NCBI GenBank assembly: GCA_964036195.1
Contig: OZ038451.1
Coordinates: 7,692,529 to 7,756,528 of the forward strand
DNA: 64,000 nt
Source of the DNA: Sphaerolaimus hirsutus
Lineage: Eukaryota; Nematoda; Chromadorea; Monhysterida; Sphaerolaimidae
Direction of reading: 5' to 3'
The notes under the pieces are model-generated. The model was not told the origin of the DNA. It ran no database searches and saw only the letters and a program-made list of their open reading frames with translations. The position numbers and the translations under genes were made by a program. The number at the start of each line of letters is the position of its first letter. The first letter of the stretch is position 1. Positions 1,737 through 36,241 of this stretch are shown one piece after another.

Positions 1737-4452
1737 CTTGAAGTGCTCGTTGGAGTAGGCGGCGTGCCGCATGCCGCACAGGAAGCAGTGGTCGGCCAGC
1801 TTGTGCGGGTCCTCCAGCATGTTCTCGTCGCCCTCCACGATCCCGCCCAGGAACTCCTGCAAGGTTTCTTATATTTGAAGCATCTAACTCTAAAAGTCCA
1901 CAAAATGCGATTTTGAGTAAATCCCATTTTAAGTTTAATGTCCAAAACATCAACGACGCAGAGACACCGTTAATTGGCGCCGTAAATTACTCAAATGGTG
2001 TCAATGAAAACATATCAGAAAAATGGTGCCACTCGCCAAGTATGACGGGCGCCTTCAGTCGCCATTCCATCACTACTGACCACTTTTGTCTAGAAATTGT
2101 TTTTCACACAAAGTGCTGAACCTGAAAAAATAGAAGAAAAACGACATAAACTAAAAAAGCCATCACACCAACCAAAATATTCTCAGCTAGTTGACTCATG
2201 ACGAACTTTTTCTCCTCGTCGCTGTTGCAGCGGTCGGACGGCAGGAACACCTTGGCCATGTTTGAGTCCTTCCCCACCATCATTTCGTACACGTGCTCGA
2301 AGAACAGGTTGTTTTGTTTCATGCGCTGCGATGCGATAATCGAACGATTACCGTATTTTTTCTAAATTACCCCCAGGTAACGATGGCAAACCCTCCAAAA
2401 AAAAGTATTTAAATTTTTAAGTGTTTTTTATAAAATGAATTTTCGAATTTTCGAATTTTTCCTGGAATTAATTTTCGAATTTCAAATTTAATTTTCGAAT
2501 TTTTGAATTTTCGAATCTTTTTTGGCAATTTTTGAATTTTTTTGGCCATTTTTCGAATTTTTTCAAATAATTTTTGAATTTTTTTTGGAAAAATATTGAA
2601 TCTGAAGCTTTAAACACAGAATTTGGACTGTTTTGGTAGTGGCTATACTCGGCAGACATGCTAATCTACAAATAGATATGATTTATATCTTTGGCTGGCA
2701 GACATCCAACTGAAAACTTGTGAACTGATTCACCACTGCACTCCATTTCATCCTGACTCCGAACCAGTTCAGTCAGCCGTAAGTTCAGTGCGGACTGCGG
2801 TTATGACGTCATGATGGAGTGTTACCACCAGAAAAATGTAGGGTGTAATTTCGCCTGAGTATAGCACACTGAGCGTACTCAGTGCATACAGTGCTAACTG
2901 CACAAAATATGGGTACTTCTCAAACCAATACTCAAAACCACTCTTATACTCCAGCGACATTACGCCTAAATACAATGAAATCTACCATGAATAAAAGAAC
3001 AAACAAAAAAAATTTCATCATATTTATCAAAGCAATTTGATTAATATGATGAAATTTTTTTATGTTTGTTCTTTTATTCAGATGGGATATGGTAGGTTTC
3101 ATTATAAAGTGTAATGTCACTGGAGTATATCTTTGATCACATCTCTTTTACTTATAAATATGTGCAGTTCCTATGTGCAGTCCCAGACACCTGTAAAATG
3201 CTCTGTGAAATGTCAAGTGTTATGCAAAGTGTCTAAAGTCATGGAAATGCTGTGGAAAATGGCAAATATGTTTGCCATTTTTCCAGGGCATTTTCATAAC
3301 TTTTGACACTTTGCATGACAGTTCACATTTTACAGGGCAGTTTACACTTCAACGTTTTTGGACCTTTTTTCTGTTTTGTTTCGCTTTTTCATAAGCACCG
3401 CGTATCAATTTTCGTTGTATTTAGTACGTTGAACTTAAGAGTGCCTTGAATTGCCTGAAAAATTCGAAAAGTATTTTCGAATTTTCGAATTTTTTGAAAA
3501 ATAAATCGATTTTTAAGTGTTTTTTCTAGGGGTGAATTAAAAATTCGAAAATTCCGGAAAAATTCGAAAATTCGAAAATGTTTTCGAATTTTCGAATCTT
3601 TTTTTGCCATCGTTACCCCCAGGGTATCATTTTTCAGAGTGTAAATTTTGAAGGGGGACGGGTATTTCGAAGTAGGGGGGATGAATAGGGGTGGGCGGTT
3701 ATTCTTCCGTCAGAAATTGTCGTAAACTTCATAGTAAAGGATACGCTCTATACATCTACGTAAATGTCTGACTTTTCTACGTCTGAGTATGTGGAATTTC
3801 ACCCCTCTCGAATTACCCCCTGAAAATTTGCTGGCGAAATAATAAACCCCCTTGGGGTATTTTGAGGTAATACGGTATTTACAAACGTAAATCGCTACAC
3901 ATACACTTATATATGGGTTGCTGCGATGCAAACTGGCAGCAATAAATACATCATCTCAATACATTTCATACATTATTAACATCACTCCAGACGGGGGTAT
4001 TTCGAGGGGGGGTATTGTTGCCTCAGCTTGTTCAGAGTTCAGACCTTGGCTTTTTCGTGGGGGTTAATTCAAGTGGGGGGGGTATTGCGTGGAAATACGG
4101 TAAATACGGTTAACCAGACCAATCCAACCTCTCTCCAAACGCGCTTTATTCTAGGCACGTCCAAATCGCAATCGTGCGCGCCGGACGCCCTGCTCTGCCA
4201 GATTCGAGTCAGGTAGCTGCCAACTGAGCCCATCTCGAAACCTGGGGCCGGTCCCAGACCCTGTAAAGTGTGAAGTGTCAAATGTCATGTAAAATGTCAA
4301 TCAAAACAAAAAAGACGATTTTATAAGTGAACCTTGCATGACAATTGACACTTTACTTTACATTTGGCATGAACATTGACATTTGACACTTTACTTTACA
4401 CTTTACAGGGTCTGGGATTGGCACCATATGCGCCTAGGACGAATGGGGTGCA
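1737..4452 (-). CDS. Unrecognised multi-exon gene, partial (four internal exons)
   Basis: Four exons on the minus strand form one open frame: 4,452-4,425 (28 nt), 4,241-4,129, 2,325-2,173 and 1,856-1,737, each with AG acceptor and GT donor and matching phases. They encode about 138 residues that are charged and not membrane-like. Visible landmarks are GSVGSYLTRIWQ, IKRVWRERMKQNN, FFEHVYEMM and, in the last exon, a possible zinc site DHCFLCGM...NEHFK (CxxC followed by His). I do not recognise the family; the CFxCG string recalls the C-terminal zinc site of IP3 and ryanodine receptors, but the surroundings do not fit. The gene continues left of the window, and its first exon was not found between 4,453 and 6,122. 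The donor chosen at 2,173 (TTG|GTTGGT) is the least certain junction. The first intron is an introner-like element; the second holds nested transposons. Confidence 0.5.
2351..3875. mobile_element. TA-flanked CCGTAT element interrupted by another transposon
   Basis: Ends CCGTATTTTTTCTAAATTAC and the inverse of CCGTATTACCTCAAAATA, in an intron of the unrecognised gene. A second element (2,378-3,615) splits it; rejoining the outer parts restores the usual TACCCCCAGGG..TTTTTCAGAGTG order of this family. A further right-end fragment with a second CCGTATTTCC end lies at 3,997-4,110. Confidence 0.65.
2378..3615. mobile_element. hAT-like element with gaatttttcg arms, nested
   Basis: Inverted ends TAACGATGGCAAA; 8-bp duplication CCCCCAGG on both sides (2,370-2,377 and 3,616-3,623). 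The arms are runs of GAATTTTTCGAATTTT-type repeats (2,440-2,670 and 3,470-3,600). The middle holds a stem-loop at about 3,008-3,063 and an introner-family fragment at 3,176-3,345. A related element lies at 20,852-21,445. Confidence 0.65.
4242..4424. mobile_element. Introner-like TIR element forming an intron (copy 1)
   Basis: A 183-bp inverted-repeat element lies between the 28-nt exon and the next exon of the unrecognised gene at 1.7-4.5 kb. The minus strand starts GTGCCAATCCCAGACCCTG and ends CAGGGTCTGGGACCGGCCCCAG, giving GT..AG. The interior iterates TGTAAA/TGTCA motifs. The flanks ACCTGG and ACCATA are a poor duplication, so this may be an old copy. Confidence 0.75.
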
Positions 4453-6122
4453 CTGCGAATTTCGGTCGCACTTTACACTGTGTTCGCAGGTTTACATCTG
4501 GCTGGGTGGTGATGTGAAAGTGAGGCGACGGACGAAAAAGTAACCCCCCTTGAATAGTCCCCCCCTCCCATTGATATTGCACGTCTTAAACAAACAGTTG
4601 AAGGCAGGCTAGACTGAGCGAATGAGCGTGTTAAAATTACTGGAAATTTTTCAATATGTAAATGTAATTTTTTTGTTATTTATACTCAAGTACACGTGAG
4701 TAAAACTTTTTTTCCTGGAAAATGTAAAAGCGAGTACTTTTTGTTTAAGAATGTGTAAAAACGAATACTTTTCCGGATCCCTTGGAATGTTCCCCTCAAA
4801 AAAACAATGAAGAATAATTTTCAAGGGGATAATTAAGCAATTACGAATGGAGCTAGTGAAGATATAATCGAGCAAATACAGTAAGCTAATATCGGATCAT
4901 AAGTAATTCACACCGCTACACTTGAGATTAGAAGGTAAGTGTAGTGAAACCACAATCATAGAGGAATGAGCAGAAAATCATGATTTCTACAGTCGATGTT
5001 AAATCGCAATAGCTTTTAGTGACCGGAAAATTCTAGACGCGAACCACAGTAAACTGGTGTGCATTGGCGACGAGCACTCGGTGCTAATTCAATAAAGGAC
5101 TAATTTGTGCACTTTCAACGACAATTCTGGCACATCAGCATGCATCTATACTTTCCATGTAAAGATACACAATCTCGCAAGTAATCATCACGTATATTGG
5201 CAACATTTTGTATTTTAAAAATTGTATCTCGCTGACCGCATGTTCTACATTCTTCAGAACACCATGATCATGACGTCATTTTCTATTGAAAGGTCATAAC
5301 TCCAAAATGAAAAATAACATTTCAAAATTTTATTTACTGCAGAAATGCATATTAGCATGTGCTTATTTTTTGATGTACATAAATAGGTATACATAGGTTT
5401 TTTTATGTACCTATTTGTCACCGCACTGACATAAGTATTTATTTTTCTTAAAAACGACCGTGTTAAGTATTAGGTCCGTGGAGTTATACATTTACCGTAT
5501 TTCCTCGAATTACCCCCGGGGGTTTTGTTTTTTCCGAGTGAAACTTTTTAGAGAAAAACGTAAAAAATGCAACAATAACCACCATTTATAAGTTTTTACA
5601 GCCTTATATAAGGATGTAGATTGTATAAACGATGTTCTAACGTAACAAAGCAAGTGTTTTGAACGTCTGTTATGCATTTCCCGGACCACAAGTTCATAGT
5701 GCCCATTTTGAGGGGGGTATTTCGAGGAAATACGGTAAATACTTGTGCATAATAGTAGTCATTTAAATACGTGTACATAAATGTAATTATACTTTGATTG
5801 TACATCTTGTCGGGTCATCTACATCAGTCACATGAAATATATCCACAATCGATACAAGGCACAAAGCACCATCCAATCCAAGTAAATATGTATACTCGAC
5901 GGACCGCTGCTATGTTTTTTTTTCCTAAGAAAAAAACATCTCAGAAAACATTCGTCGCTTGCACGGGACTCCGCCTTTTTCTTTCAAGAATATCTTTCTT
6001 TTTTTGTGAAAGTGAATACATAAGTATCCTGATCGCGCATTATCGACCTAGACATAATTAATTTTGGGTGCATACTTTGCGGTCTGCCGAGTATACCACC
6101 GTCAACCACAATCAAAACTCCA
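4453..6122. other. Intergenic stretch, mostly repeats
   Basis: Holds a GTAAA/ACTTTTAC-rich repeat (4,620-4,880) and a TA-flanked CCGTATTTCC element (5,495-5,735). The UNC93-like gene ends at 6,123. I saw no further exon. Confidence 0.5.
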
Positions 6123-9100
6123 TCACTCCCCCCTATCATTCACACAATCACCCTGTGTCTGCATCTGCGCGGTTGAGTAATCGACCGTAGTCTCCATCGG
6201 ACTGCGTCCCGCCGCACCCCTTTGATAAATCCTCGAGAATTGTTCGAATTTGTACTCGAAGAAGGCGTAGGCGAGCATGGAGGTGGCCAAAACTCCGCCC
6301 ATCGTGTACAGCAGAGGTAAGCCGCCCAGGAAGGTTATTAGGATGTACTGTGAGCGCGTTATTTATAGTGATGATCAGTGGGTGGATAACTGGGCATCGG
6401 GTATCTCTGGACATCTGGTCTGCACTCAGTGGACATTTCCATGCATGCAGTGGACGGACATATTTACAACACTAATGGACATTCAGGGCACATAAACATG
6501 CATGAAGACTTTTCATGACGCTTCACCTAGCATCCATTCCATACACCATTCTTGATGTGATATGAAAATTGACATTTTTATTTTTGGAATACATTTTACT
6601 TCCGCTAATCAAAATTTGGTTTGTGGAAAATATCCAAGTTCGCATGTGATTTATGTCCACTGCATTCATAAAAATGTCTACTTAGCACAAATGTCATGTG
6701 TGGTGATGGAAAAAACGCCAGGACTTTGGCGCCTAGCGTCAAAAGCGTCATGGCGCTTTTCCGAACCCCAGAGCCAGGCGCCAATGGCGCCAGGACAAAA
6801 TGGCGCCAAGCGCCTGAAGCGCCATGGCGCTTTTTGCTTTGGCGCTAGCGCCAAGCGCAAGCGCCAGATATTTTGTTCCTGTCGCCAGGCAAAAATAGCG
6901 CCGAGCGCCAAAAATGCCATGGCGCTTTTCCGAACCACCGCCAAGCGCCATTGGCGCCATAGCAAAATAGCGCCAAGCGCCATGGCGTTTTTTTCTTTTG
7001 GCGCTAGCGCCAGGCGCCAGCGCCATGGCGCTTTTCCATCACTAGTCCTGTGGTGTTATATAGCCATAACTGCAGTTTCAGTTCATTGGGATTTTTCACT
7101 TGTACACACCTGTATAGCAAAGCCAAGCCACTGCCAAAAGCAGAACACTGTGAACGCTTCCCTATATTGATACCGACTGCAAACGACCCAGAAATCTGAA
7201 AACAGAATCAATAACGCAATGCAGTCATTAACACACAAAAACACAGAGAAAAAACACAGAAAAATCACCCAAAAAACAAACCGGCAATTTGAGTGCTCCA
7301 TGCAGCGTCAGCCATGCCCCAACTGATGGCAACAGCGTACAAAATGGCCGCATCCTGGCCTACGGGCGGCCAGCACATGAGCGTGACCACCATGAGCATG
7401 TTCACAACCAGGGGCACTCACAGAGCCTGTAAAATGTCATGTAAAATGTCATGTAAAATGCCCTGTAAAATGCCCTGTAAAGTGTCATTGGTCATGTAAA
7501 CTATAGTGTAAAACGGTAAAAGAAGGTTTGCCATTTTCCAGGGCATTTTAAATAACTTTTGACACATTTCATGGGATTTGAAATTTACAGGGAAAGTTGC
7601 ATTTTATTAGAAATTTACAATGCACTTTACAAGACTTTTCACAATTTACATGACATTTTACATTTGACAGGACATTTTACAGGCTCTGGGAGCGGCACCA
7701 GGCCGAAAGTGAACAGGGGCATCCGGCCGAACATCTTTATGATGGGACCAAAGAATAGAGAGCACACAGAGTCGGCGAGCGCGAACGCGCACACTACGAT
7801 GCCGATTTGCTTTATGCCAAGACAACAGCCGACGAACGCCTGGGCGGATTGTCAAAAAATTGTATTTTTTGCAAATGGAAACACAACGTATTGAAAAATT
7901 AGACAGAATTTTATGAAAAACAGCGTCATTTTATAGGGACTATGATTGCCGTATTTCCTCGAAATAGCCCAATTTCGCCAGCAAATTTGAGGGGGGTTTA
8001 TTCGAGGGGGTTTATTCGAAGGGGTTCAATATTTTGCCAGAAATTAGTCGTTCACACCTGGGGTATTATCAGGAGGGGGGCGTGAAATCGTGTGGCGGCG
8101 TGAGTATTTCGGGGGTATTTCGCAGAGTTGCGAAAGTGTATTTACACTTACCCGAAATACCCGGGTAAATGGGTATTTATATTTACACTTACACTTACAC
8201 TTTCATAAAATACCCATACACTTTTTTACACTTTCCTGGGCAAAATACCCGGGTACAGAAAGTGTATTTTTTTCTTTCAGATGGCCCAGTTTTATGGATT
8301 TGAGAAAGTATAAAATAGGGTCATGTACAAAAAATGCATTGAATGTAGAAAATATGGAAAATGTACCAACTAGCCTTTGATCTACAACCTTTGATCAGTA
8401 CTCATGGTATTCTACAGTTTCATCATACTTTTGTAAAAAGGACAAGATCAACGGAAATTCACCAGCTGGACACAAAGTCAACTTTTGCATTGACATTTGC
8501 TGCATGTCCGTTCTTGCATTCACAGCAAAAAATGGGCTCGTAAAGCATGGAAGCGGCGCGCATCCACACGCTTCAGCACGCTTCCACCAACACCACGAGA
8601 TTTTGGTCGAAGTGTCTTCCACAGGCTTCACCTAGCTTCACCATGCGCTGCATGCGCATCCAAGCATGTGGAAAACACTTCACAATGCTGACGCTTCCAC
8701 ACGCTTCACCAGCATATTAGTTTGCGTGCCAGCGCGTTTCTAGAAAGTGTGAAGTGTCTTCACGCAGATTTTCGTGATGTGCGTGGAAGCGTTGGCGTGC
8801 TTGGTGAAGCGTCGGGAAGTGTTGGTGTGAAGACACTTCACGACGCTTCACCGCGCATCCACACTCCCATTTTTCGCTGTGATTTAAACAGTGTGTATCG
8901 CATTGCTTAATCAGTAAAATATCAACACTGAAAAAGTGTCATTATTAGGGAACTTATACCACTACAGTATTTGTTGCAGTCTGAAATGTGTCATAAAAGA
9001 CCGTAAAATGTGAAATAATGCATGAAAATGACAAATAAAGTGATCCAAAGGTGAGAACAGCGGTGTTTTCTAATGCTCAACAGTGAGAGCTCTTTCTAAA

Positions 9101-12100: not shown

Positions 12101-13170
12101 GTTCAAAACAGATTTTTCAGTTTTGAAAGTTTACCAGTCTACTGTAGTGTGTATAGACACAATAGAAGCTTCAAAAATGGTTTAAAAACCTCCACGAACC
12201 CTGTAAAAAGTCCACTTGTTCCACAGCGGAGGCTATTTTTCGCGAGGGCGCGTCGGCAGCGAGCAAACCGTGAAGGGGGCAGTCGGCGTTCACTTCCAAT
12301 ATATAAAATCGCTGGCGCCTTTTTCTTTGCCGACAGCTAGACGGCTGGGTATTTTTTATGGGGTGAAGAGTGAGCATTTCGTTGTTAATATTTTGTACTA
12401 AGGTAGCGATGTAAAAGAGCCAAGAAAAGCGCCATGGCGAAAAGCGCTTTTGGCGCCTGGCGCAGTTGTGGGTGGCGCCAGAAACAAAAGCGCCTGGCGC
12501 TGGCGCCTTGCGCCAGGCGTCATTGGCGCTTGGCGCTAAGGGTTACAAAAAGGGTTTTGTAGCGCTTGGCGCCAAGTGCTGTCGCTTTCTACATCACTAT
12601 GCTGGGGTGACTAATGACTACCGTTCGCGCACGGTTCCTCTTTTACTGTGCTAACTGCGAGATAAATATACTTGGCACGTTGCCAGCGGAGCCTGTATAC
12701 CCGGCCGGGTATCCAAAGTTACAAACGCACCTGGTTTGGCTGATCCAGCGACGACTGTTGTTCGTGATCTAGGTCGTACAGGGCGGCGGTCGACTGCTGC
12801 GGCATGCCGAGCATGTGCGCGTCGGAATGCGGCACTGTGCGCTCACCCGGCGGCACCACTTCGGTTCGTTCATCATCCTGTGTTTGCCCAGATACCGTAT
12901 TTCCTCGAAATACCCCCAGGGGGTTTATTTTTTCAGAGTGGAAATTTTGAGGGGGGTATTTCGAGGGGGGCTTATTCGAGGGGGGTATTATTTCGTCAGA
13001 AATTTTAACGAAATTCATAGTAAAGAGTACTGTTACATGTACATGTTACTGTACAGTACTGTATATGTACCCAAAACTGGTAATAAACGTGTCCAAGTAG
13101 GGTATATTTGGACATATCAGCGTGCATCGCTGCACAAACTAGTTTATCTGTAGCTGCGATGCAAACTGGA

Positions 13171-13240
<70 letters not shown>

Positions 13241-16200: not shown

Positions 16201-19200
16201 CCAATCATTATGGCTTAGCAGATGAAGGGATATTGAATTTACATTAATTCCACATTTTGTTTATTTTAATGGTTGTATTTTCTGATTTATGATTGAGTAT
16301 TATTCAAAATCTTATCTAAAGGGTCGTTTACACGGTTTCGTGTGCCGACAAAAAAGTTAAGCGAGAAAGTTCCATAATTCCGGAATAAAGTTCCGTATTT
16401 GCGGGAAAAGCCAGTGAAGTATGCTCACTAGTTAAGTTTACACACATGCCAATTTGCATATAATTTGAGCCTGTCGTTCAGGACTTATTTGCATTTGAAG
16501 ATGAATTTCAGTTGTCGGTTCGGTTTCAAAACGAAAACCGAACCGACAACTAAAATTAATTTTCAAATGCCTATAACTCTTGAACGACAAGCTCAAATTA
16601 TCTGCAAATTGGCATGTGTGTACACATAACCAGTGAGCACAATTCACCGTTTTTTCTTGCATATATGAAACTTAATTCCAGAATTATAGAACTTTTCCAC
16701 CAAACTTTTTTGTCGGCACACGAAAGCGTGTAAACGCTGCTTAAGGCATTTATCAATGTGTTCAATTAATCAATCAATTATCAAGGTTCCAACTCAACAG
16801 TAGCAGACAAGTAAATGCTACCATGGCTATTTCTTTCGAAAAATAGCAGAGATCAGTCCGGCAAAAAATTAACAACCATCATCTGTTTTATAATTTGCAT
16901 AACAGATGGTTGTAGTTGTAGTACATCAAAAAGTATAAAAGTAACACGGAACTAGATCATAGGACAGTACAATCTATTTTTGAACACCAAAACGAACACA
17001 CAAAATTACGTCTGAAATTGACTCCACTGAAGGTGGAGCTGTTCCATTATTTTTGTGTACCCCATTTCCCATAACTCAGAATTTCTCAAGTTACGGTTTC
17101 GGTTAGACGGTTACGGTGTGGTTCTTTTTGTCCCAAAAAGCACCCTTTAAATGGTATTAGTGCAATGCCAATGATAATGGCATTCCATCAGTATACACAC
17201 ACACACACACACCAATTTTTGTCGTAACATTAAATCTGGTGAATGTATTAAAATAATCTCCAGGTTATTATAAAAAGCCACTTGTAAAGCGCACTGGGTC
17301 TACTGATCAAGTGAACAAATTACCTATGGTCCATCTCCAGCCCTTACATCAATGAAACTGGATACCATATTGGAAACCGCAACTGAAGGCTGGGAGGTTT
17401 GCAAAATAGATTGAATCTGTGATTCCATTTTGAAATGTATTCATGGATTGAGAAATATCTCGGGGAAATAGTTTTTGAGATTTCTTTGGATGGAACATTT
17501 GATACTTGTGAGAGAAAAAATAACATAGATGTAGGAAAAAAACAATTAAAAAAGTTTGTGTACTTAAGCCCAGTTGTGACATCATTTTAAATGCATGCTG
17601 TATCCAAAAAGTGTTATTGGGGCATGTGTTCCAATATCTACATTTTCTCTACTATTTCCCTAAAAATATGAAAATCAACATTTTCTGAGAGTTTTTTTAT
17701 TATAAATCATAGAAGTGTTGTTACATTGCAACTAGCGTTCCAAAAAATACGCGATTTTCTGAAAATATAATTAAATATAATCTCAGAAAATCTCTCTAAA
17801 AATAAAATAAAATAAAATCTCTCATGTCATTTGGAAAATATAATAAAATCTCTGAGAACATCTCCCATGCTTTAGAAAATTTCAAAAAATCTCCCAGCTG
17901 GAATGTTTTTCTATTTGATATTTCAGGGTCAACACAGAGTAAATATGTATTCAATAAACTCTTATGTGTTGCTTCAACACTTTCATTTGAAATGTCAAAC
18001 AACGCAAACAACAATATAATTTTTGAAAAGAGTCACGTGAAACTATCAAATGTCACAAATGTTACTTCATTCAACACTGTCTTCAAAACATATCATGCCA
18101 CAAAGTCTTCTCACTCAAATTCAAACACCTATTTGTCACAACTGAAGTCCGACTGAAAAGTTGCTCAGCACTAGCAGCACTTCAAGGTATACAGAGTATA
18201 CCTATACAGTGCAAAATGTCAAGCATTCATTTCAGCCAACTTTTGTAAAAAAATCATTAACTGCTGATTGTAAAGGATGCTTTTTCAAGATATAAAAACT
18301 TAAAATAGCCAAAAAATGTTATGTAAATAAGCACATGTATCACCAAACATAAGGGGACAAATTGATTGTAGATTTGAAGGAGAAAATGGGCAAAAGTATG
18401 AAAATAGGGGCAAAATTCCTTAAAAAGGTGACTTCAGGGAGAATTTTTTTCATTTTCTCCCACAGAAATAAAAAATATAATTAAATCTCTCTGAAAAATC
18501 TTGGAAAAAATATAAAATATAATTAAATGCGCTATTTACTAATATTTTCTGAGATTTTTTAATATAAATCTCCCAGAGATTTTTAGAACGCTAATTGCAA
18601 CATCACTTCATGTTGTCATTGATACTTATTTATGTGTGTGAGAATAAATGCTATAAACAAACTGTATGTGATTAAAACTTGCACATGACCTAAAACATAA
18701 AAAAGATGGGGGATGGGCAGTTAAGCATTTTGGAGTGCCTTCATGCTTGTTGTAGAAATTACCTGAAGCATGTTTTGTTTAATTTCTAGAAAAAATTTTC
18801 ATATTCATCAAAATATCTTCCGGTTTCGCCAGCAGTACACTGAATATAGGTAGCTACATTTTTAAATAAATTTGAATGAAAAACATTTCATGGAAAACGG
18901 GTCTACTCAAATCAATCTTACATTGACACATTTCCCATGGGTCATTGCATGCAATAATGCCGCTGCACAACTAGTTTACTAACGGAAAACTAAGAATTTG
19001 GTAAACTCATTTTTGAGTTTCCTAGCGCATCTGAGTTTACCGGAATGTGTTATTTTCAATCCCCGTCAACTGTAGTTGACGAACAGCTCATTTCGGTAAA
19101 CTCAGATGCGCTCAGAAGCCGAGAAATGAGTTTACCAAATTCTTAGTTTACCGTTAGTAAACTAGCGTGTGCAGCGCCAATATACATTACCGCCATTACA

Positions 19201-20567: not shown

Positions 20568-22508
20568 CGATCGGCGATGGGCGTGTCCCTATTGGGTGTC
20601 CAGCGCAAGTTCGGCCCCTCGCAGCCCTCCGATCCTGAGTGTGAGCAACTATATTTAACGGACGAATAAATATGCATCCGCACTTATGTCTTCGCGCCAA
20701 CGCATCAACGCCATACTTATGCATGCCTTCCACAAATATGTATTAAAAATAATAATAAGGCGGAGTCAAGAGCAACCAACATATAATACAAACTATGTTT
20801 GCTGCCTGAAATCATTTTTGGAACTCGTTTTTTTATGATGACGTTATGATTAACGATGGCAAAAAAAGATCCTGAAAATTTGAAAACGTTTTCAAATTTT
20901 CTATTTTTTTTGGGACTTTTCGAATTTTTGAGCACGCGGTGAAAAAATACATAAAAGTAGATTTTTTTCAAAAGATTGGAAAAGAGTTTTCGAATTTTTT
21001 AGGTAATTCGAGGCATTGATATGTATTCTTAAGTTCAACGTTCTAAATCAATTGACAATTGACTTGTGGTGTGTCTGAGCTGTAATAAAGACGTAAAACG
21101 TTGAGTTCCGAGTTCGATTGAGTTTTTCATAAAAAATTTTTCAAAACCTCAAAATGGGCACTATGAATTTGTGGTCCGGAAATGTATAACAGACGTTCAA
21201 AACACTTACTGTGTTACGTTAGAACATCGTTTATACCATCTATAATTCGAGAGGGTTATTCGAGGAAATACGGTATTGAAAAACATTCAAAAACTACCTA
21301 AAAAAATTCGAAAACTACCAAAAAATTCGAAAACGACCCAAAAAATTCAAAAATTCGCAAACTAAATTCGAAAATTCGAAAACTGTTTTGGGGAAAAGTT
21401 TGAAAAGTCATTTCAGAAAAAATACTTAAAAATTTAAATACTTTTTTTCTGGAGGGATTGTTAGTTATGATGGAGTATTTCTTTCAGAAAAATGCATAGA
21501 ATGCGGTCAGGGAAGTATAGGCAACAATGGAAAAAACACAGAAATTGAACACAGAAACTCATTGAGTTTCTGTGTTTTTGTTTTACACAGAAACACGGAA
21601 ACTCACAAATTTAGAAAAACTCAAAACTCAAATGAGTTTTTTTTGAAGAACACAGAAACACGGAAACACAGAAAAGTTTTTTGAGTTTTTGAGTTTTTTT
21701 CAGAGAAGTGGTTGAACACATTTTCAGAATGCACATGAATTCAGTTAAACTCAACAAGATAAGATATGCATGTAAAGCATGTAAATATGTACATAATGTA
21801 TTCATATTTTATGATGGAACAAAAAATAAATTAAAGATGGCACGCACATCTCCTGGTGGACATGTTAAAATATAGTTGTAGTTCAAATCAATTCTGTAGT
21901 CTTCCATACAGTGCACATCCATTGAACAATTTTGGAGTACTGCGTAAATTGTCGTTTGTGAGCATTTTGTTGATGCTGGTGTTGTGATGTGGGTGGATGT
22001 CCACATTGAGAATATTTTTATGGAGTTTTTCGACACTTGAATGTATACACATATGTTATGTGGGGTTAAAACATGTGCAAAACCAATATTTTATAAGAAA
22101 ACCGCTGTTTCCACATAAAAATGCTGTAAATCAGAATTTTTTGGGGGAAAACTTGAGTTTTTTGGACAAAAACTCGAGTTTTTTTAGAAAAAAACTCAAA
22201 AAAACTCCGAGTTTTAACAAAAAACACAGAAATAAAAACAGAGTTACTCAAGTTTTTTTGTTAAAAAAAACTCAAAACACAGGTATTCATTTTTGAAAAA
22301 CTCAAAACACAGAAACTGTTGTTTTTTTGGAGAACTTACCCATCGTTGAGTATAGGTACCTATTCTACTTGAAAACTACCACAGCATCAAGTCCTTCAAG
22401 TGAAAACGCACTCAAAAAAGGGACAAACTTACTTTCTCCGGCCAACCACAATGCATCCAACAGCTTCAGTTCCACATCTCGACTAGAATTTCTCTCTTTC
22501 GAATCCAT
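20568..22508 (-). CDS. Possible extra 5' coding exons of the UNC93-like gene
   Basis: Exon 22,508-22,433 begins with ATG preceded by an in-frame TGA, reads MDSKERNSSRDVELKLLDAL and onward, and ends at a strong donor A|GTAAGT. Exon 20,634-20,568 has acceptor CTCAG and donor CG|GTGACT. Their phases chain with an acceptor GTGAAG|A just before the ATG at 19,380, which would lengthen the UNC93-like protein by 49 residues to about 629. This rests only on phase agreement and splice-site quality; the stretch could instead be a separate short gene or 5' UTR. Confidence 0.35.
20852..21445. mobile_element. Element with gaattttcg arms
   Basis: AACGATGGCAAAAAAAG at the left and AAATTCGAAAA arrays on both sides. 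A fragment of a TA-type element ending GAGGAAATACGGTA lies inside at about 21,130-21,275. Confidence 0.55.
21480..22330. repeat. Array of AAACTCGAGTTTT / ACACAGAAA units
   Basis: Iterated ACACAGAAACTC and inverted GAGTTTTTGTG units in two blocks (21,530-21,720; 22,130-22,320). The same motif set recurs at 36,770-36,950 and 39,240-39,470, in both places inside the 36.3-39.9 kb element. Confidence 0.6.
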
Positions 22509-22816
22509 CAGTAGCGCTCATTCGAATAAGGACATAAAAATTGATGCTGTGCGAGCGAGCCTTTAAATGAGGTTTTTATCTGTCCATCTTTTGAAAAGGT
22601 AAATCATAAATAGGTAGGTAGTGTAGTACTCTGCTTCTTAAGTTTCAGGGATGCGCGTAGCGACAAAATGGCGCCATGGCGCTGGCGCCATTAAATGACG
22701 CCAAAATAGTGCCGCAGCCATGGAACCGTTGGTGCATGTTGACCTTTTTCTGAGGCGCCCGCCCCGCGTGACGCGTTTCATCCTGACGCGGCGTGCTTTC
22801 AAAATGGCGTCAGAAT

Positions 22817-24015
22817 TAGTGATGGAAAAGCGCCATGGCGCTGGCGCTTGGCGCTAGCGCCAAAGCAAAAAGCGCCATGGCGCTTTTGGCGCTTGGCGCC
22901 TTTTTGCTGTGGCGCCATTGGCGCTTGGCGCCGGGGTTTGGAAAAGCGCCATGGCGCTTTTGGCGATTGGCGCTATGACGCCGTGGCGCTATTGGCGCTT
23001 GGCGCTAGTGTTTTCAAAAGCGCCAAAAAAGCGCCAAGAAATTTACTCAAAATTCATCAATATTTTATGCAGAAAGACCTGTTAAGTATAATTTACAATA
23101 GTTTATGTGCTACTGTCAGTGTATTCTCGGATCAATATACATCATTCTATTCATCGGACTTGTAACACTCTTCACATAGGTTTTAGCTCGATCGCTATAC
23201 TGACTGAGCTCGTTCCTTGCAGTTTTGTTTGAGCAGGGTCAAAGGACCCTGAAAAGTGTGAAGTTGAGTAATTAACATCATCCAATATTTCATAAATACA
23301 ACTTTGTTAAGTGTCATGTGAAATGTCAAAAGTTCAATCAAAATTTTTTATTTTTTATTTTGATTGACTTTGAATTTTGATTTTACATCACATTCACTTC
23401 TTGACATTTGACACTTGATTTTACAGGGTGTGGAATCACTTTCTGAAGCCATTCAAACACTGGCAATCCAAAATTTGAAACCTCAAAATCCTATGTTCAA
23501 AAGTGACTAGCAAAACTCGAAACTGCAATATTCTTGTAGACAAATTGTAAGTATTCCCCAAAAAAAGTGAAAACTTCATTTGAAAATTATTTTTTGGGAA
23601 AACAACTAAATTCCAAAAGTTATTAAAAACACCTAAAAAATCTTAGCACTTTTTACAGATGGTGTGCTATACTTAAGCCCAAACACCCAGCTGCAAAATA
23701 TCAAGACAAAAAGAACAAAAAAAGTGACTGCAGTTTACTTGTATCTTGCGCCAAAAACAAATTAATAGCAGTGCATCAGCATGGCTGCATATATGAGAAG
23801 CAAAAATTTTTTGGCGCTGGCGCTATTGGCGCTTGGCGCCAATGTCCTCTGGCGCCATTGGCGCTTGGCGCCGTGGTCCAGAAAAGCGCCATGGCGCTTT
23901 TGGCGCTTGGCGCCATTTTGCTCTGGCGCCATTGGCGCTTGGCGCTGGGGTTCCGAAAAGCGCCATGGCGCTTTTGGCGCTTGGCGCCAAAGTCCTGGCG
24001 CTTTTTCCATCACTA
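22817..24015. mobile_element. hAT-like gcgcc element, 1.2 kb, perfect 8-bp duplication
   Basis: Ends TAGTGATGGAAAAGCGCC and the inverse; duplication GTCAGAAT at 22,809-22,816 and 24,016-24,023. Both arms (22,817-23,041 and 23,805-24,015) are gcgcc arrays. The core is AT-rich and contains an introner-family relic at 23,237-23,440. The right part and core match 32,379-33,034 in inverse orientation. Confidence 0.8.
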
Positions 24016-24023
24016 GTCAGAAT

Positions 24024-25563
24024 GGTTGGCGCCATTGTCAATTTTGCAGTACACTTACACCCTTACTTGTGTCTGGCGCATTTTTGGCGGTTGCGCCATG
24101 GCGCCATTATTGGCGATATCGCCCATTTCTGTGGCGTTAGGCGCCATGTCTTGATGGCGCCATCGCGGCCTTGGCGCTTGACAAAATTTTACAGGTACAT
24201 TTTCATTACTTTACTACACACCCGTCGACAAATGGGTATTTTAAATATTTAATCATGTTCTCTCATATTTACGGGGTAATTTTGATTAAAATAGTTTATT
24301 AACACTTCACTTGCGATGGGCGGAGTCTTATTCTTATGGGATGCTCATTGCTTTTGCAGGAACATATTATAGATACCTAATTTTTTAGAACAATATTTTT
24401 AATTATAAGTTATAATTAAGACTTAGAAAAAAATGGTAAAGGTGGTATTTAAGAAAATTGCATGCGTGCGCATTTGTTTTAAAATAGTGGCGCGAGAAGA
24501 GAACGGAGGTGAGCTTAACTTAAATCAAGTAAAGCTAAATATTGAGACTGTGAATTTGACCTCCACGATCATAAATAAATACGAAGGCTTTATGCACCTG
24601 TTAGGTAATTAAAAAGCACACATAAAATAAGTTAGGTTGTTAGGTAATTTAAAAGCACACAAACAGACAGCTGACAAACCAATTACGCATAAAGTTGACT
24701 GGCCATTTTGGCTCTGTGCAGTTTTTCTGCTGTAGGTATTTATGACAAAGTTTGCAGAAAACCACAAAAGTATTGACATTTCGTAAAGAGAACGCATAAA
24801 CTGAAGCATTAACCACAGAATTTGAAATCTTTCGTGAACTAAAACTATACCATTAACTGTAAGTGAAAGCAGCTGTCTAGTGCAGTCGCGTCGCCGTGAA
24901 ATTATGGATTTTATTGAACATTTTGAGGCATAAAATATGCAACGATATTCTGAAAATATGCAACGATATTCTGAAACAGACACATGGATAATTCTCTACT
25001 CCTATCGCCGATGAAAAACACATGGATTTGCATTTACAAGGTAATAACGTTCGAAATAACCCAAATAACTTGACAAAATACCACCAAAATACCACACACA
25101 TTCATCTATGCATAGCAATCAATAGCGACAAGAGCACTGGGGTGAACGCCATGTTCACTTTATGTCTGGTTGTAGAGTTGCAGATGTCCTGGTGCCAATT
25201 CCACAAGTGCAACAGTGAAGATACAAGTGGTAAGTGGTGATAAATAAAATTAATATTTTTTTATTTTTTATTTATTTAACACAATTCACAAGTCAAATAA
25301 AGGCAACAATTGAATAAAAAAAGAAATATCGGGAAACGCTTCATCGTTATGAATTTCATCTGAAACACTTGGAACGGTGCCAAATTATTTGCAAACGCCG
25401 CCTTTTACATCCCATACACTCATCTTTTCTGAAGAAAACACTCCCAGTCCTCATAAAATGACTCAAAACTTATTACTTGTGACTTGACTTAAACTTTCAA
25501 ACTTATAAACCCAGCTACCATTTCCAACTCGCACTGTCACCGGTGCACTAGGGGCACTGGCAC
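24024..25563. other. Stretch without recognised gene
   Basis: Begins with scattered gcgcc units (24,024-24,180), then AT-rich DNA. An ORF on the minus strand at 24,609-24,983 has no family resemblance and irregular composition. The intron next to the exon at 25,564 starts GTGCCAGTGCC, like a decayed introner end. Confidence 0.4.
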
Positions 25564-28500
25564 CTGGTCGCAGTAGCACAGACGCGTGTAGCCCAGCAGC
25601 GGGAACAGCACCTGGGGGCAGTCCCAAGCCCTGTGAAGTGTAAAGTAAAGTGTCAAATGTAAAGTCAAATGCAAAGTAAAGTGGCAATCAAAACAAAAGA
25701 GAAAAGATTTTATTACTGAACTTTGCATGACAATTGACACTTTACTTTGCATTTGACTTTACATTTGACACTTTACTTTACACTTTACAGGGCTTGGGAT
25801 TGCCACCTGGCTGATCAGGGGCGTCTCGTCGCAGCTGAGTAAAGGGGAACTGTGGGTGTGCTTGCTTGATGTACCTGTATAGTATTTCCTCGAATAACAC
25901 CCCCTAAATCAGAGTCCCTTGAATTAACCCCCCTCAAAATTTGCTGACAAAATAAGCCCCCTGGGGCCAGATTTAAAACTCCCTACAGATTTGTAGGGTA
26001 GGGCGTATGCCCGACAGATTTTTTAAAGTGTAGCCGCATCGACGCTAGTGATGTTAAAGGCACCGGGAAAAATGGCACCGCACCGCACCGGCACCTTTGC
26101 CAACGCATGTAAAGGGCACCTGGCACCCTGGGGCACCGGCCAGAAAATGGCACCGCACCGCACCGGCACCGGTGCCTTTTGGAAAAAATGGCACCGGCAC
26201 CGAAGGGCACCGGCGGGTTGCCGGTGCTAGCACCGAAAGGCACCGCACCGGGCTGGAATTTCTGAAGTAAATATCGGGCAGTTTCTCAGTGGTCTCACCT
26301 TTGGAAGTGCATATTTCCACGAATTTTCAACCGATTTTGATGGTTGAGCACTTAAAATGATCAGAATGATGTGGCAATCACTTTTATGAAGCAATTACAA
26401 TGATTACAAATGAAAGATAAAATATTTAATTCACTACAATGTCCGTAGCCACTATTGTCTACTGATCGGAGTCGTTGCTGTACAGAGAATGGAACTATCT
26501 CTGTCATAAACTGACAACAAATTTTGACCAAACAAGTAAGATAAATATAAAATATAAAAATGATTTGAAATTCAATAAAATTTTAGATTCGCTCATCAGA
26601 TCACATATTGGGTATAATGGATTTCACAGTAGGTATATTTATTTGATGGGAGGTTTACAAAATAGGCAAAAACGGTTGGGTAAATATATCGCTGTTTTTT
26701 GAAATATGAATAGGCACATACTATGGACAAAATTGCACAACACATGAAGCCTTGGCCGGTGCCTTTCCCGGTGCCTTTTAGTTTGGCCCTGGTGCTAGCA
26801 CCTTTGGCACCGGCAAAAAAATGGCACCGCACCGCACCGGCACCGGTGCTATTCTGAAAAAAATGGCACCGGCACCGGCATGGCACCCCTGAAGATTGCA
26901 ATGGCACCGCACCAGCACCGGTGCTGGTGCCCTTCGGTGCCCAGCACCGGGGCACCGGTGCCCCGGTGCCTTTACATCACTAATCGACGCACATGCACCG
27001 AGAGCAAGGCGGTTCGTAAAATATACGAAACCATCCCTTAAGGTTGCCGATATTGCAATATTACGTATATCACTTCGATTTTGGCCCGGAAATCACGATT
27101 TCGTCATTTCTTGGCCGTCTGCCAATTCGTTTTTTTTTTATTTTGTCGGGCGGGTTACTCGCATAAGTCGCGCTTTTGTACGCTCGTGCACGCATTTCTT
27201 TCTTGTCGCTGCCCTCATGGTTTCGGTTGCAGACAGTGAACACTAAAAAAGTGACCACCTGACTATACAAAAGCGCGACTTATGCGAGTAACCCGCCCGA
27301 CAAAATAAAATAAAAAACGAATTGGCAGACGGCCAAGAAATGACGAAATCGTGGTTTCCGGGCGAAAATCGAAGCGATATACGTCATATTGCAATATCGG
27401 CGACCTTAAGAGATGGTTTCGTATATTTTACGAACCGCCTTGCTCTCGGTGCATGTGTGTCGATGCGGCTGAACTTTAAAAAATCTATCGGGCGTACGCC
27501 CTACCCTACAAATCTGTAGGGAGTATTAAATCTGGCCCCTGGGCCTGGGGGCATATCAAGCAATTACGGTAGGTACCAAATATTGGTGCACCTGTTTTGC
27601 ATATTCGGCTCGAATTCGATAACATCCAGTTGGGCGCCACTGGCAACCCTTCGTCCGGCAGGCACGCGCAGTCGCGACAGGCAGTCACGCACAATCATAG
27701 GATATCCTGGTACCGTATTTCTTCTAATAGAAGAGCGCCGTTCTATTTTTTCATCAACTTTTTTACCTGCCGTTCTATTAGGTGTCGTTCTATTGGAGGC
27801 TGCCGTTCTATTTTTTCACCAGTATTTTTTGACATTTTTCATTTGAAAATAGTGTTTTTTAATGAAAAATGAACAACATATTACTAATAGAGCATCAATT
27901 CAAACAAAACCAAATATGAAAATTACCCTAAATCATAGTTCTGAACACCTTTGATGTTCTCACCACCCATTTTTCTATTATTTGTGTGTTCTGGCACTCT
28001 TCCAATGTAGTTTCTACCTGCCGTTCTATTGGAGGTGCTGTTCTATTGGAGGTTGCCGTTCTATTAATTTCGTGAGTGCAAAAAAGTGCCAAAACCTGCC
28101 GTTCTATTGGAGGTGCCGTTCTATTGGAGGTATGCCGTTCTATTAGAAGAAATACGGTAATTGCAAATTGGGAATTGATAGTGGAATGGAAGGGGTGGAT
28201 GGTATGGTATGGTATCAAGATTCTGTTTTCAATTTTTTCCGTTTCCACTTTCTGAAAGCAAAGTTTTTCCGTTTCTGTTTACGTTTTCCGGAAAGTGCAA
28301 TAATTTTTCCAATACCGTTTCCATTCTCCGACAAGTGCAAATTTGTTTCTGTTTCCATTTTCGATAAAAAAAATTTTTTTGACACCTACTAGTGGGTCGG
28401 TTTTGAGTAGGGAGTTGGGTCCAAATCCGAACGGGACCACGGTCCCGCTACATGGTTCGGCAAAATTCCGTAAATCCCGGTTCCGGTCCCGGTGCCCCGG

Positions 28501-31398: not shown

Positions 31399-31451
31399 CT
31401 GTGGCGCAGGGCAGGCAGATAATTGGATCACACTAGTTTACCACACATGAG

Positions 31452-31699
31452 TAGTGATGTGAAAAGCGCCAGAGCTCTGGCGCCAGGCGCCATAAGCGCC
31501 GTGGCGCTTTTCCGAACTCCAGCGCCAGGCGCCAATGGCGTCAGGGGAACATGGCGTCAAGCGCCAGCAGCGCCATAGCGCTTTTTGCTCTGGCGCTAGC
31601 GCCAAGCGCCAGGGATTTTGTTCCTGGCGCTGGTCAAAAATAGCGTCAAGCGCCAAAAAGCGCTATGGCACTTTTTGCTTTGGCGCTTTTACATCACTA
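31452..31699. mobile_element. gcgcc-repeat hAT-like element
   Basis: TAGTGATGTGAAAAGCGCC to its inverse; flanks CACATGAG and TACATGAG (7 of 8). Confidence 0.7.
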
Positions 31700-32378
31700 T
31701 ACATGAGTGTCAACTACCTAGTGTGTTTCAACTCAGATTTCGGCTTTAGGTACGTGTCGCACAGCGATCTCCGAATGCACTTGCTGTAATATTTATCCTA
31801 CAACATTGCCGCATGTGCATTTGGAGATCGCTCAGAGATACGTGAAGCCGAAATCTGAGTTGACACTGACCAGTTAACACACGTGTGTCAACTAGCTGGG
31901 CCACCAATGATTCGATCACACAAAGAAAGTCAATGAATCCCAGCACAACAAACTTCTCTTGGCGTTGGCTAATGCCGTTTTTCCATGCGCCACTTCCAAG
32001 TGGCAACATATTAAGGCCATTAGGATGCTGATATCTTTCAAAACGCCATATATGTCCATCTTTTATATTTACCTACATACGTATTCCAAATTCTCTAAGT
32101 GAGACAGAGCTCAATGTACACACTACACAGAGTGATATAAAATGCATGAACTTTACCATCGCACTATACCTACTACAGAAAAGCCTGAAAAGCTGCATCT
32201 TTGACACGTGGTCTTTTCAAAATCCTTTTACAGACAACTCAAATGTGAAAACTGAATCTTTTTATACCAGCTTGACATCAAAACAATAGACAGCAGAAGA
32301 AGCTCGAAACTCGAAATATTTAGCAAATGTACAAATCACATGTGGATGCGCATCTATCATCAATGAATGTCCCACCAA

Positions 32379-33034
32379 TAGTGATGGAAAAAGCGCCAGG
32401 ACTTTGGCGCCAAGCGCCAAAAGCGCCATGGCGCTTTTCCGAACCCCAGCGCCCAGCGCCAATGGCGCCAGACCAAAATGGCGCCATGCGCCAAAAGCGC
32501 CATGGCGCTTTTCTAGACCAAGGCGCCAAGCGCCAATGGCGCCAGAGGATATTGGCGCCAAGCGCCAATAGCGCCAGCGCCAAAAAAATTTTTGCTTCTC
32601 ATATGCAGCCATGCTGATGCACTGCTATTAACTTTGTTTTGGCGCAAGATACAAGTCAACTGCAGTCACTTTCGTTCTTTTTGTCTTTGCGGTGTTTTAA
32701 AAAATTACTTTTGGAATTTAGTTGTTATTCCCCAAAAATAATTTTCAAATGAAGTTTTCAATTTTTTTGGAATACATTCGATTTTTCTACTAGAATATTG
32801 CAGTTTCGAGTTTTGCTAGTCACTTTTGAACATAGGATTTTAGGAGCAGAGGAACATAGGAACGCCACGGCGTCATAGCGCCAAGCGCCAAAAGCGCCAT
32901 GGCGCTTTTCCAAACCCCAGCGCCAAGCGCCAATGGCGCCACAGCAAAAAGGCGCCAAGCGCCAATAGCGCCATGGCGCTTTTTGCTTTGGCGCTAGCGC
33001 CAGGCGCCAGCGCCATGGCGCTTTTCCATCACTA
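32379..33034. mobile_element. gcgcc-repeat hAT-like element, perfect 8-bp duplication
   Basis: TAGTGATGGAAAAAGCGCC to its inverse; duplication CCCACCAA at 32,371-32,378 and 33,035-33,042. Two gcgcc arms flank an AT-rich core that matches the core of 22,817-24,015 in reverse. This is the more intact copy of that family. Confidence 0.85.
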
Positions 33035-33042
33035 CCCACCAA

Positions 33043-33515
33043 TACCACGCACGCACGTAGTCATACACATACGCACGCATGTAAACGCACCCACGGTCGA
33101 TGATAAACCCCTCGATTTGACCCTCCCTGATATATTGCAGGCAAAAAAAATAAAATAAAAATTTATCTGTTGGTGGGATCTTTGTTTATATGATATAGTT
33201 TGCATTATATTTACCTATATACTGGATCATTGATGTAGGTATTTGATGTTTGAAATATCATTTGTGGATCTTTGTGCATTTTCTGTTACAGTACATAACT
33301 TTTTTTCTTGTATGGATTTTGTGTCTGTTTTACAATTTCCCCTCACCGAGCGGATCGTATTTACTTTTTACTGTTACAAATACAAATACATGCAGTTTTA
33401 AAAAGTCTCATGCATATTATTTCATAATGAATTTGTACATTTAAAAAACTCTAATATACACAATTGTCACTTATGGAAAGTGACTGATCACTGATCATGC
33501 TCAATCCAAATCATG
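33043..33515. other. AT-rich stretch downstream of the MS4A-like gene
   Basis: Follows the stop codon of the MS4A-like gene on the minus strand, so should hold its 3' UTR; I saw no clear polyadenylation signal and no other feature. Confidence 0.4.
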
Positions 33516-36241
33516 TTATTGTTGCTTGCTTGAATCTGCAATAACATGCCAAAATTGACCACCACCTGGAACAGTCTGGAGCATATATTTCTCAGTTTGT
33601 TCAGCATTACTACCATTGAATTTCATATCCAATTGGCTCTGTACTTCTGTCCTTGTACTTGGAGGAGTATCCTAAAATTGTTTTGATGTATCCCATTCTA
33701 GACAAAATCAAATGTTTATCAATCAGGAAAAACCCACTGGTGACTGCAGCTCCACTCTTCCTACAAGTGGGCACTTGTCTACATCTTGACTTTGTACATT
33801 AAGTGCCAATGCTGCAAATGGACTTCTCCACATTCCACTGGCAAACTGTTTTCTGAGGGATCTGAGATTGATAAAAATATCAAATTGCTTTATTTTGAGG
33901 GTTTTCCCTTTTTCACTGTATACCTGAACTGGTGCTTTTGAATACTGACAGTTTGGAAATCACTAACAGTGGCAGTTTACATTCTATTATTCTCAAAATC
34001 ATATTTTCAGATTTTATTCTTGTACGTTTCAACTCCATTAATTCAGTTTTGGAAAATATTTAAAGAACAAGGAATTATGAAATTAATCCTATTTTTGAAT
34101 CATACAAAAAAACCCACCTGGCAGCGACAATCAATGACAACAAACACAGAACAATCTCAACCAAAGCTACAGACATGAGCACAGAATGGGCTGCAGCCCT
34201 GCCACTGCCACACATGTGCAGCATTGTGGGCCAGGGGGCACTCCCAGACCCTGTAAAATGGCCTGTAAAATGTAAAGTGTCATGCAAGGTTTCAAAAAAC
34301 ATGTAAAATGCCCTGGAAAATGTCAAACGTTCATTTACCATTTCACAGTGTGTTTTACATCACACTTGATATTTCACAGTTTATTTTGCATGACTTTAGA
34401 CACTTTTTACATGACACCTGACATTTTACATGGCATTTTACAGGCTCTAGGAGTGGCACCAGCTGGACTGGTGGTCGGCTGCTGGGGCAGCTGGTACCTG
34501 CTGTTCTCGTGATGGCAAGGGGTGGTGATTCATTGTGGTCGTAGCTGCAGAGAGGGGGGGGGTTCAGTTACTATTCAAACAATGTTCTGTTATTGGGGGA
34601 GGGGGTGCCCTCCACCAACACCGGCACCCCGGTGTGTTTACCAAACAATGTATTAATTGTGAAGGATGTGTAAGTGTCATGTAAGTCATGAAGTGAATTT
34701 GTAAGCGTCAAGTTAGGTGAAGCGCAGACAATTCACGTCACCATAGTGTTTGTGATCTCTTCTCTGGTTAATTGAATCTACCGTATTTCCTCGAAATACC
34801 CCCCGGGGGGTGATTGTTTCATAGTGGTCCCGAGAGGGGGGGGGGGGTTAAACGAGGGGGGGGTATTTCGAGGGGGGGGGTTATTATTTCACAAGACAAT
34901 TTTTGAAAACCAAGTACGAAATTGTCGTCTGAAACGTACGCAGACGTCGAAAAATGCAACAAAAACCGCCATTTATAAGGTTCTGTAGACTAATATTAGT
35001 ATGTAGGTGGTATGTACACTGTTCTAACGTGACACCGACATTGTTTTAACGTGTGTTCTGCAGTACACAGAACACAAACTACAGTTATTGTCATGTACGT
35101 TCCCTTTACACTCAATTTGGGGGGGGGTATTTCGAGGGGGGGGGGGTGATTGTTTCATAGTGGTCTCGAAAGGGGGGGGGTCAAACGAGGGGGGGGGGGT
35201 ATTTCGAGGGGGGGTATTTCGAGGAAATACGGTAGGTGGCCAGTCCGCAGCATTTTGCACACTTTTTCCCCACAATTCCCTCAACCAAACCCATTCCATT
35301 GCCACCCCCCCCCCCCTCACCAGCACCCGAAATCCATCTCTCACACACCCTGCTCGCCTCGCCCGCGCTCTCCACGAAGAGCACCGCGGACAACAGAAGG
35401 CCGACCGCGCTGAACACGCACAGGAGCGACAGGGTCGGCCTGTCGGTGGCGGTGCGCGTGTACTGCAACTGCAGCTGGTATTGGTGCTGTCTGGGGGCGG
35501 TTCCGGAAGCTGTGAAGAGCCCTGTAAATTGTTGAATATCACGCAAAGTGTCAAAAGTCATGTAAAATGCCCTGCAAAATGGCAAACGAGTTGTCATTTT
35601 GCAGGGCATTTTACATGACTTTTGACACTTTGCGTGACATTTCACATTTTACAAGGCATTTTACAGGGTCTGGAATTGACACCTGGACGCTATTAGAGCG
35701 AGGGCGCCACAGACTAGGTAGCACAGGCCTGGGTTTTTGGTGTGGGTTTGGATTGAAGTTAAGTTGTGGCTGTGGCGAGAAAAGCGCGTTGTCAATCATG
35801 TTTACTGGACTGAATATCATTTTTTCTGCAGCGCTTTTTAAACACACTTGCTCCAGTTACAAATTCAGCTGCACAATGTGTTAGGTAAAACTTTATCCAG
35901 AGTAGAAGCCAAGTCCGCAAAAAAGAAGTGAAGGGTGAACTGGTAAGGGGTGAAGCGGTCACATCACTTTTCAATTCACTTCTCACTTCTCATTTCACTT
36001 CACTTCACCAAAGTCAATATTCACCTGCAGCAATAGCAAAGGCGGTCTCAGACGCGGAATTTGTAGCCACATCATACAACACCAAAAGTCCCCCAGCAAG
36101 CACATGCGCCCAGCCCAGCAATGTGGCACAAGGTCTGCATGACCAATTGGCACCTGACACAGGGCCACTGTGACCAACTGAGTTGGATCCCAATTGAGAA
36201 CATCCAGTTTCTTGAATCGCACCACTGCTGCTTGACTGCGA
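33516..36241 (-). CDS. MS4A-like four-helix membrane protein, lacking first exon
   Basis: Seven exons with fully consistent phases: 36,241-36,025; 35,728-35,683; 35,490-35,321; 34,544-34,460; 34,240-34,118; 33,852-33,738; 33,671-33,516 (TAA); 303 residues. Order: Ser/Gly-rich N-tail; helix 1 (ATLLGWAHVLAGGLLVLYD, about residues 39-57); helix 2 (AFAIAAGLCYLVCGALALIA); a polar loop; helix 3 (TLSLLCVFSAVGLLLSAVLF); a long loop rich in Pro, Gln and Ser; helix 4 (AHSVLMSVALVEIVLCLLSL); then a 90-residue Gln/Ser-rich cytoplasmic tail. The layout, with a short loop between helices 1 and 2, is that of MS4A/CD20-like and FAM189-like tetraspan proteins; the exact family is not settled. The initiating exon was not found; it would lie above 36,241, where a 3.6-kb hAT-like element begins at 36,294. 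Introns 2 and 4 are introner-like elements. Confidence 0.65.
34232..34459. mobile_element. Introner-like TIR element forming an intron (copy 4)
   Basis: Element between exons 4 and 5 of the MS4A-like gene, with ends GTGCCACTCCTAGAGCC and GGGTCTGGGAGTGCCCCCTG on the sense strand. As in copy 2 the sense target reads CTGG. An AG inside the repeat (GGGAG|TGCC, intron 34,241-34,459) keeps frame and adds three codons (Cys-Ala-Pro), so a canonical GT..AG splice is possible here. Confidence 0.75.
34781..35232. mobile_element. TA-flanked CCGTATTTCC element in an MS4A-like gene intron
   Basis: Inverted ends CCGTATTTCCTCGAAATA, runs of GGGGTATTTCGAGG. Ends 89 bp from the donor of the helix-3 exon. Long ORFs on both strands at 35,024-35,618 come from its repeats. 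Confidence 0.7.
35491..35682. mobile_element. Introner-like TIR element forming an intron (copy 5, canonical)
   Basis: A 192-bp element between exons 2 and 3 of the MS4A-like gene. The sense strand reads TCCAG|GTGTCAATTCCAGACC at the donor and CGGTTCC (inverted) with CCCCCAG|ACAG at the acceptor. A near-perfect central hairpin around 35,563-35,640 repeats TGTAAAATGCCCTG and its complement. Confidence 0.75.

Follow-up and report, generated by a model that had tools for sequence, protein, structure and literature searches.

Where an intron consists of nothing but a repetitive element, the question arises whether the element came to fill the intron or made it. The 64,000-nt stretch of DNA analysed here (the window) contains inverted-repeat elements 1-5, which are copies of one related family; the introns they would form run on the minus strand and begin with the GT end of the element. 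Element 1 (4245-4424, or 4242..4424 with its CAG) has the ends GTGCCAATCCC and GGCCCC, and it is taken as a putative coding intron only, because its flanking 3-mers are ATG and CAG and the open stretch upstream is short (22 aa). Element 2 (7412-7698; 7409..7698 with CTG) is a predicted intron of a probable MFS gene, and element 3 (25615-25806; 25612..25806 with CAG), a young copy, forms a predicted GT..CAG intron. Element 4 (34235-34459; 34232..34459 with CTG), with a tail that reads TCTGGGAG, TGCCCC, CTG, and element 5 (35494-35682; 35491..35682 with CAG), which also has the GT..CAG form, probably belong to the same gene. An earlier note had described five introns in four genes, each filled by this family. 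All five elements are indeed present and related; since no coding evidence backs element 1 as an intron, four introns are supported by open frames, and elements 4 and 5 are probably to be counted under one gene. The introns placed at 4242-4424, 7409-7698, 25612-25806 and 35491-35682 each correspond to an element plus one 3-mer, while that placed at 34241-34459 ends at an AG inside the element, 9 nt short of precise excision (34232-34459).

The family extends beyond these five copies. A related copy at 42321..42504, with no strand assigned, has GT at both ends and CTG flanks; coding flanks were looked for around it and not found, and a hairpin-based scan also missed it. The terminal repeat recurs on the minus strand in a more diverged copy at 37732..37751 (2 mismatches to the terminal 20-mer) and in another at 57348..57367 (3 mismatches), and none of these three sets of ends could be assigned to introns. 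With up to 3 mismatches allowed, the 20-mer matches the window 7 times, against 0 expected. A stricter two-end model recovered elements 1-4 and the copy at 42321-42504, and gave 0 matches in five block-shuffled windows; a looser model that requires a hairpin recovered elements 1-5. Searches of the whole genome with the terminal repeat found 8,357 ends of the AAGCCC subfamily (4162 + 4195, at most 2 mismatches), a count of ends to which one copy may contribute two, and 4,397 ends of a second subfamily (GGTCTGGGAGTGCCCC followed by CWG; 2217 + 2180, at most 1 mismatch). Reversed-pattern controls gave 0 for both counts. Among 100 listed matches to GGTCTGGGAGTGCCCC plus CWG, counted by hand, 55 carried CAG and 45 CTG. 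The RNA of element 3 folds into a hairpin of -116.6 kcal/mol (z -19.2), and no Rfam match was obtained for the window and 19 loci. Identity to the consensus is at least 94% in 31 of 46 aligned copies, reaching 98.4% in element 3 and 88% in element 1. Copies within conserved genes show 61-66% (66% for those in ARP3 and HSP60), partly because the consensus represents another subfamily. The window also contains an inverted repeat at 16316-16745, with 211-nt arms that are 83% complementary.

Ends and flanks were compared in a sample drawn from the window and the fetched loci, which comprises 60 paired copies (in two of the pairs, one end also belongs to another pair) and is biased to the young subfamily because many loci were chosen for an exact GGCAATCCCAAGCCCTGTAA. 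In this biased sample the ends are unequal in 48 of 60 copies, one being GT and the other, read inward, GG; most copies have GTGGCA at one end and GGGGCA at the other. Flanking 3-mers are identical in 31 of the 54 copies that could be oriented, against a mean of 15.9 and a maximum of 24 in 1000 shuffles, and differ in the remaining 23. CAG/CAG and CTG/CTG flanks each account for 15 of the 54, mixed CWG flanks for 4, and exact duplications of 4 or more bases for 0. When joined flanks were compared with fetched sequence, related empty sites with a single CWG were found for 7 of the 60 copies; three of the seven match one common stretch of the window, a single empty repeat. Both marks of insertion looked for in introner copies, a target duplication and empty sites, are thus present. 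Other dispersed repeats of the window, at 12890-12960, 21820-21890 and 49450-49620 (TACGGTATTTCCTCGAAATACCCCC; CTATCTATC..), serve as empty sites for copies elsewhere.

These features resemble those of a known transposon group. In the available text of PMC4482050, the NuwaI group of the PHIS (PIF/Harbinger-ISL2EU-Spy) superfamily is described as found mainly in animals, with a 5'-CWG-3' target duplication and terminal repeats that usually begin with GGG. Autonomous members are expected to encode a DDE transposase and a Myb/SANT protein. The CWG duplication is shared by the present family. Of its two termini, in most copies one reads GGGGCA and the other GTGGCA, whose GT is the putative splice site. 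Target and repeat start resemble NuwaI, which we take as the candidate group. CACTA/EnSpm repeats start with CACTA or CACTG; the ends here, GTGG and GGGG, do not place the family in that group.

Insertions in conserved genes allow the boundaries to be judged against homologues. Two family searches supplied the loci, which comprise most of the actin-family (L039-L049) and chaperonin (L059-L073) clusters. The stricter model identified one full-length element each in L041, L043, L047 and L062 and three in L049; the looser scan also flagged L044 4565-4693 and L059 2331-2535, which were judged too weak and are uncounted. Five of the seven full-length copies are exactly bounded introns, distributed across three genes: an intron of ARP3 (L047) and one of mitochondrial HSP60 (L062), each made up of the element and one 3-mer with no leftover intron sequence, and three introns of an actin-like gene (L049; sites a, b and c), each likewise the element and one 3-mer. 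Once element and 3-mer are removed, the joined product aligns without a gap over the junction to 1k8k_A for ARP3 (7.1e-47), to 7l7s_H for HSP60 (1.8e-27) and to 4efh_A for site c (6.1e-13); sites a and b fit precise removal less cleanly than site c. The GT end lies upstream at 5 of 5 of these sites, where the strand of the gene is known independently (p 0.06, weak when taken alone). A GT-first count of 10 of 10 includes window copies whose strand was read from frames, and so is not independent. Of the 162 frames scanned in each sense across the sampled copies, 22 are open with GT first and 16 in the opposite sense, a difference too small to be decisive. Eight intron-sized gaps in myosin genes, inspected by eye, contain no introner copy.

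For each case, 1,525 combinations of shifted donor and acceptor were scored against reference proteins. Precise excision was the best canonical GT-AG pair for ARP3 (397), HSP60 (270) and site b (141), with the reservations that an equal shift of both ends scored 399 in ARP3 and that a non-canonical pair scored 156 at site b. The precise boundary is a CG end at sites a and c. It scored 70 at site a, where the best canonical choice was an inner AG at -9 (57), and 139 at site c, where a GC-AG pair was the best canonical choice (133), followed by the inner AG and an AG at +9 with equal scores (both 126).

In the window, reading frames are open on both sides after element removal at 7.4k, 25.6k, 35.5k and 34.2k, the last with either boundary. 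The junction of element 2 reads continuously (..MPLFTFGL^VVNMLMV..), and precise removal there gives an intron that ends in TG. The joined exons match Pfam MFS_1 over the junction (E 4e-4, under the cut-off) and are weakly UNC93B1-like, again over the junction, in PDB 7c76 (E 0.053), which makes the host probably an MFS gene; a stitched 402-aa model of the gene found no match in Pfam or in a homologue search. This weak homology, confined among the window elements to element 2, is accompanied by open junctions at element 3 (..DETPLISQ^VLFPLLGY..; no Pfam match to the joined frame), element 4 (..ADHQSS^WPTMLHM..) and element 5 (..LVCGALALIAS^RQHQYQLQ..), for which homologues were not found. The intron of element 4 could end at TG (34232) or at the inner AG (34241); the earlier claim that the exon phases demand removal of the entire element fails here, at 34.2k, where a 9-nt-longer in-frame product fits equally well. 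The minus-strand gene that contains elements 4 and 5 (34075-36300) resembles a four-helix membrane protein, with nothing above Pfam cut-offs.

Several other features of the window and of the fetched loci were noted. Exons of a plus-strand gene at 48400-54180 resemble, by eye, those of a coiled-coil voltage-sensor protein (Hv1/TMEM266-like; Pfam Ion_trans at E 0.53 only) and are surrounded at 51180-54560 by long ATCCCGATCCCG arrays. Tracts of GGCGCCATGGCGCTTTT-type repeats, at 6720-7050, 12170-12540, 22740-23170, 23630-24020, 32260-33060, 36300-36500 and 39690-39980, produce long spurious open frames. Outside the window, a young CAG copy (L078 1018-1209) has joined flanks similar, by eye, to an ionotropic glutamate receptor at its last membrane helix, with no match in Pfam.

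How copies at non-CAG sites would be spliced is a matter of inference. Among ten candidate exonic copies, element 1 included, AG stands at the precise 3' boundary in six and TG or CG in four, where the 3-mer is CTG, CCG or TCG. An inner AG, 5-6 nt before the element end, occurs in all four copies that lack a boundary AG and in one of the six that have it (Fisher two-sided 0.048, in a small sample confounded with subfamily). Use of this AG would preserve the frame at element 4 and at sites a and c, where 9 nt would remain; in element 2, which has no boundary AG, it would leave 8 nt, a frameshift that departs from the 9-nt rule. To be accounted for, element 2 requires a TG acceptor, the loss of a C or an error of assembly, unless it is a broken allele. 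Splicing at the inner CCCT/GTAAAG..CTTTACAG/GG of the repeats, followed by hand, breaks the frame or meets a stop in elements 2, 3 and 4. Homology favours a non-AG end at sites a and c, since the inner AG falls 13 points short of the precise boundary there; the difference is about the cost of three extra residues.

The host spliceosome might accept TG and CG 3' ends and excise such copies precisely, as under relaxed splicing, which we consider unlikely. Besides the 13 points at sites a and c, a TG acceptor is the sole way in which element 2 keeps its frame, and precedents exist: in the available text of PMC2374985, human TG acceptors occur close to an AG and depend on it, and that of PMC13326754 describes a tunicate lineage, Fritillaria, with many non-AG ends, a possible model for those seen here. 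Against this, the inner AG is present in 4 of 4 such copies, and two of them are no longer TG but CCG and TCG, which is unexpected if the acceptor were needed. Ordinary actin introns of this host, in contrast to the Fritillaria introns so described, are GT-AG where resolved, at 23 of 28 junctions with ties settled toward GT-AG; we read the other five as a product of imprecise exon chaining. Several of these introns have a C-rich tract before CAG, like the CCCCCAG end of the element. Compared with human beta-actin, for which an approximate sequence was used, the actin exons that matched show 75-100% identity, the lowest value spanning a mis-chained exon, and in our judgement they are metazoan-like. 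Actin exons on contigs C34 (L079, G000:C34) and C48 apparently duplicate C1:4.60 Mb and C13:3.74 Mb; these contigs are possibly alternative haplotypes, usable for a presence/absence comparison. Because the human acceptors of this kind need an AG close by, mixed use of TG and the inner AG at CTG sites is possible.

Alternatively, the exonic copies may not be spliced at all, being insertions that sit in pseudogenes or in a single haplotype. The product of the element-2 gene, which would be frameshifted with a canonical acceptor, is what such an insertion might leave, yet ARP3 and HSP60 are intact and conserved on both sides of the element, and their copies are diverged (66% identity to a consensus that mostly reflects another subfamily) and therefore probably not recent. 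We judge this explanation very improbable.

No more credence is given to the proposal that ordinary MITEs entered existing introns and came to fill them, with no intron created. Two of the seven full-length copies in conserved genes do sit within larger introns (L041 3575-3712 and L043 3117-3324), and by eye sites a and c lie three and two residues, respectively, from introns of actin paralogues. However, the other five are the element plus 3 bp exactly, with no residual intron sequence, the coding flank retains one copy of the target, and no site coincides exactly with any resolved paralogue intron. Spread through RNA by reverse splicing, a mechanism put forward for introner-like elements of fungi, would also yield copies that are introns end to end, but it is almost certainly excluded by the 3-bp duplication, the terminal inverted repeats and the insertions into dispersed repeats, all marks of DNA transposition.

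The introner reading of the earlier note is upheld by the thousands of ends, by the 3-bp duplication and the related empty sites, and by conserved genes in which copies form introns with exact boundaries. Given a family with unequal ends, this duplication, the empty sites and gapless junctions in conserved genes, we consider it highly probable, on sequence evidence, that these elements are DNA-transposon introners in which GT comes from the element and AG from the duplicated CAG. A small hairpin-shaped DNA transposon, presumably moved by a NuwaI or PIF/Harbinger-type transposase, would land in a coding exon at CAG with its GT end upstream, so that the inserted copy reads CAG/GT..element..CCCCCAG/. 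The element would provide the 5' splice site and the duplicated CAG the 3' splice site; because its own end and the three duplicated bases look like splice signals, it is apparently cut out like an intron, and such splicing in vivo would restore the mRNA exactly. At non-CAG sites, the AG 5-6 nt inside the element may act as acceptor, as a rule leaving 6 nt of repeat and 3 nt of target, 9 nt in all or three in-frame codons. Two frame-safe routes, exact erasure at CAG and addition of three codons at CTG with the AGTGCCCC AG, free of stops in any frame, are put forward tentatively, as a reading we hold to be somewhat doubtful; it is weighted a little lower because, at sites a and c, homology ranked the inner AG below the precise boundary. 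An ordinary MITE could have become an intron maker through one G-to-T change in a NuwaI-type repeat, at one of its two ends.

Comparable systems have been described. The available text of Gozashti et al. 2022 (PMC9860276) describes introners as multicopy whole-intron elements, some with terminal repeats and target duplications, of which some carry the 5' site and co-opt the 3' site from the duplication while others carry both sites and add extra nucleotides (12 nt in one Aureococcus family). The present family is likewise made of multicopy whole introns with one splice site from a duplication, and differs from the introners so described in drawing its 3' site from a CWG duplication of 3 bp and in having a second subfamily that apparently brings an AG of its own, with 9 nt left behind. 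Elements that Huff and colleagues reportedly described in 2016 from Micromonas and Aureococcus are said to be MITE-like, with a target duplication shared with the splice site; their duplications are reportedly longer and their sequence unrelated to that of the present family. The words Harbinger, PIF and superfamil are absent from the main text of PMC9860276. In the literature covered, 'introner' is paired with 'Harbinger' for fungi only, and no NuwaI or Harbinger introner appears in titles and abstract beginnings of introner literature since 2022, an incomplete coverage that does not make the family undescribed.

Intron-making transposons are known from few animals, two groups in the available text of PMC9860276. 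For the old question of where introns come from, this family displays the steps in sequence: a target CAG and the first bases of the element, GT, make up an exon-intron junction, and a single genome contains empty sites, young copies (element 3, 98.4%) and, within conserved genes, copies that have diverged. With a candidate transposon group named, the change from GG to GT and the fate of CTG insertions become directly testable.
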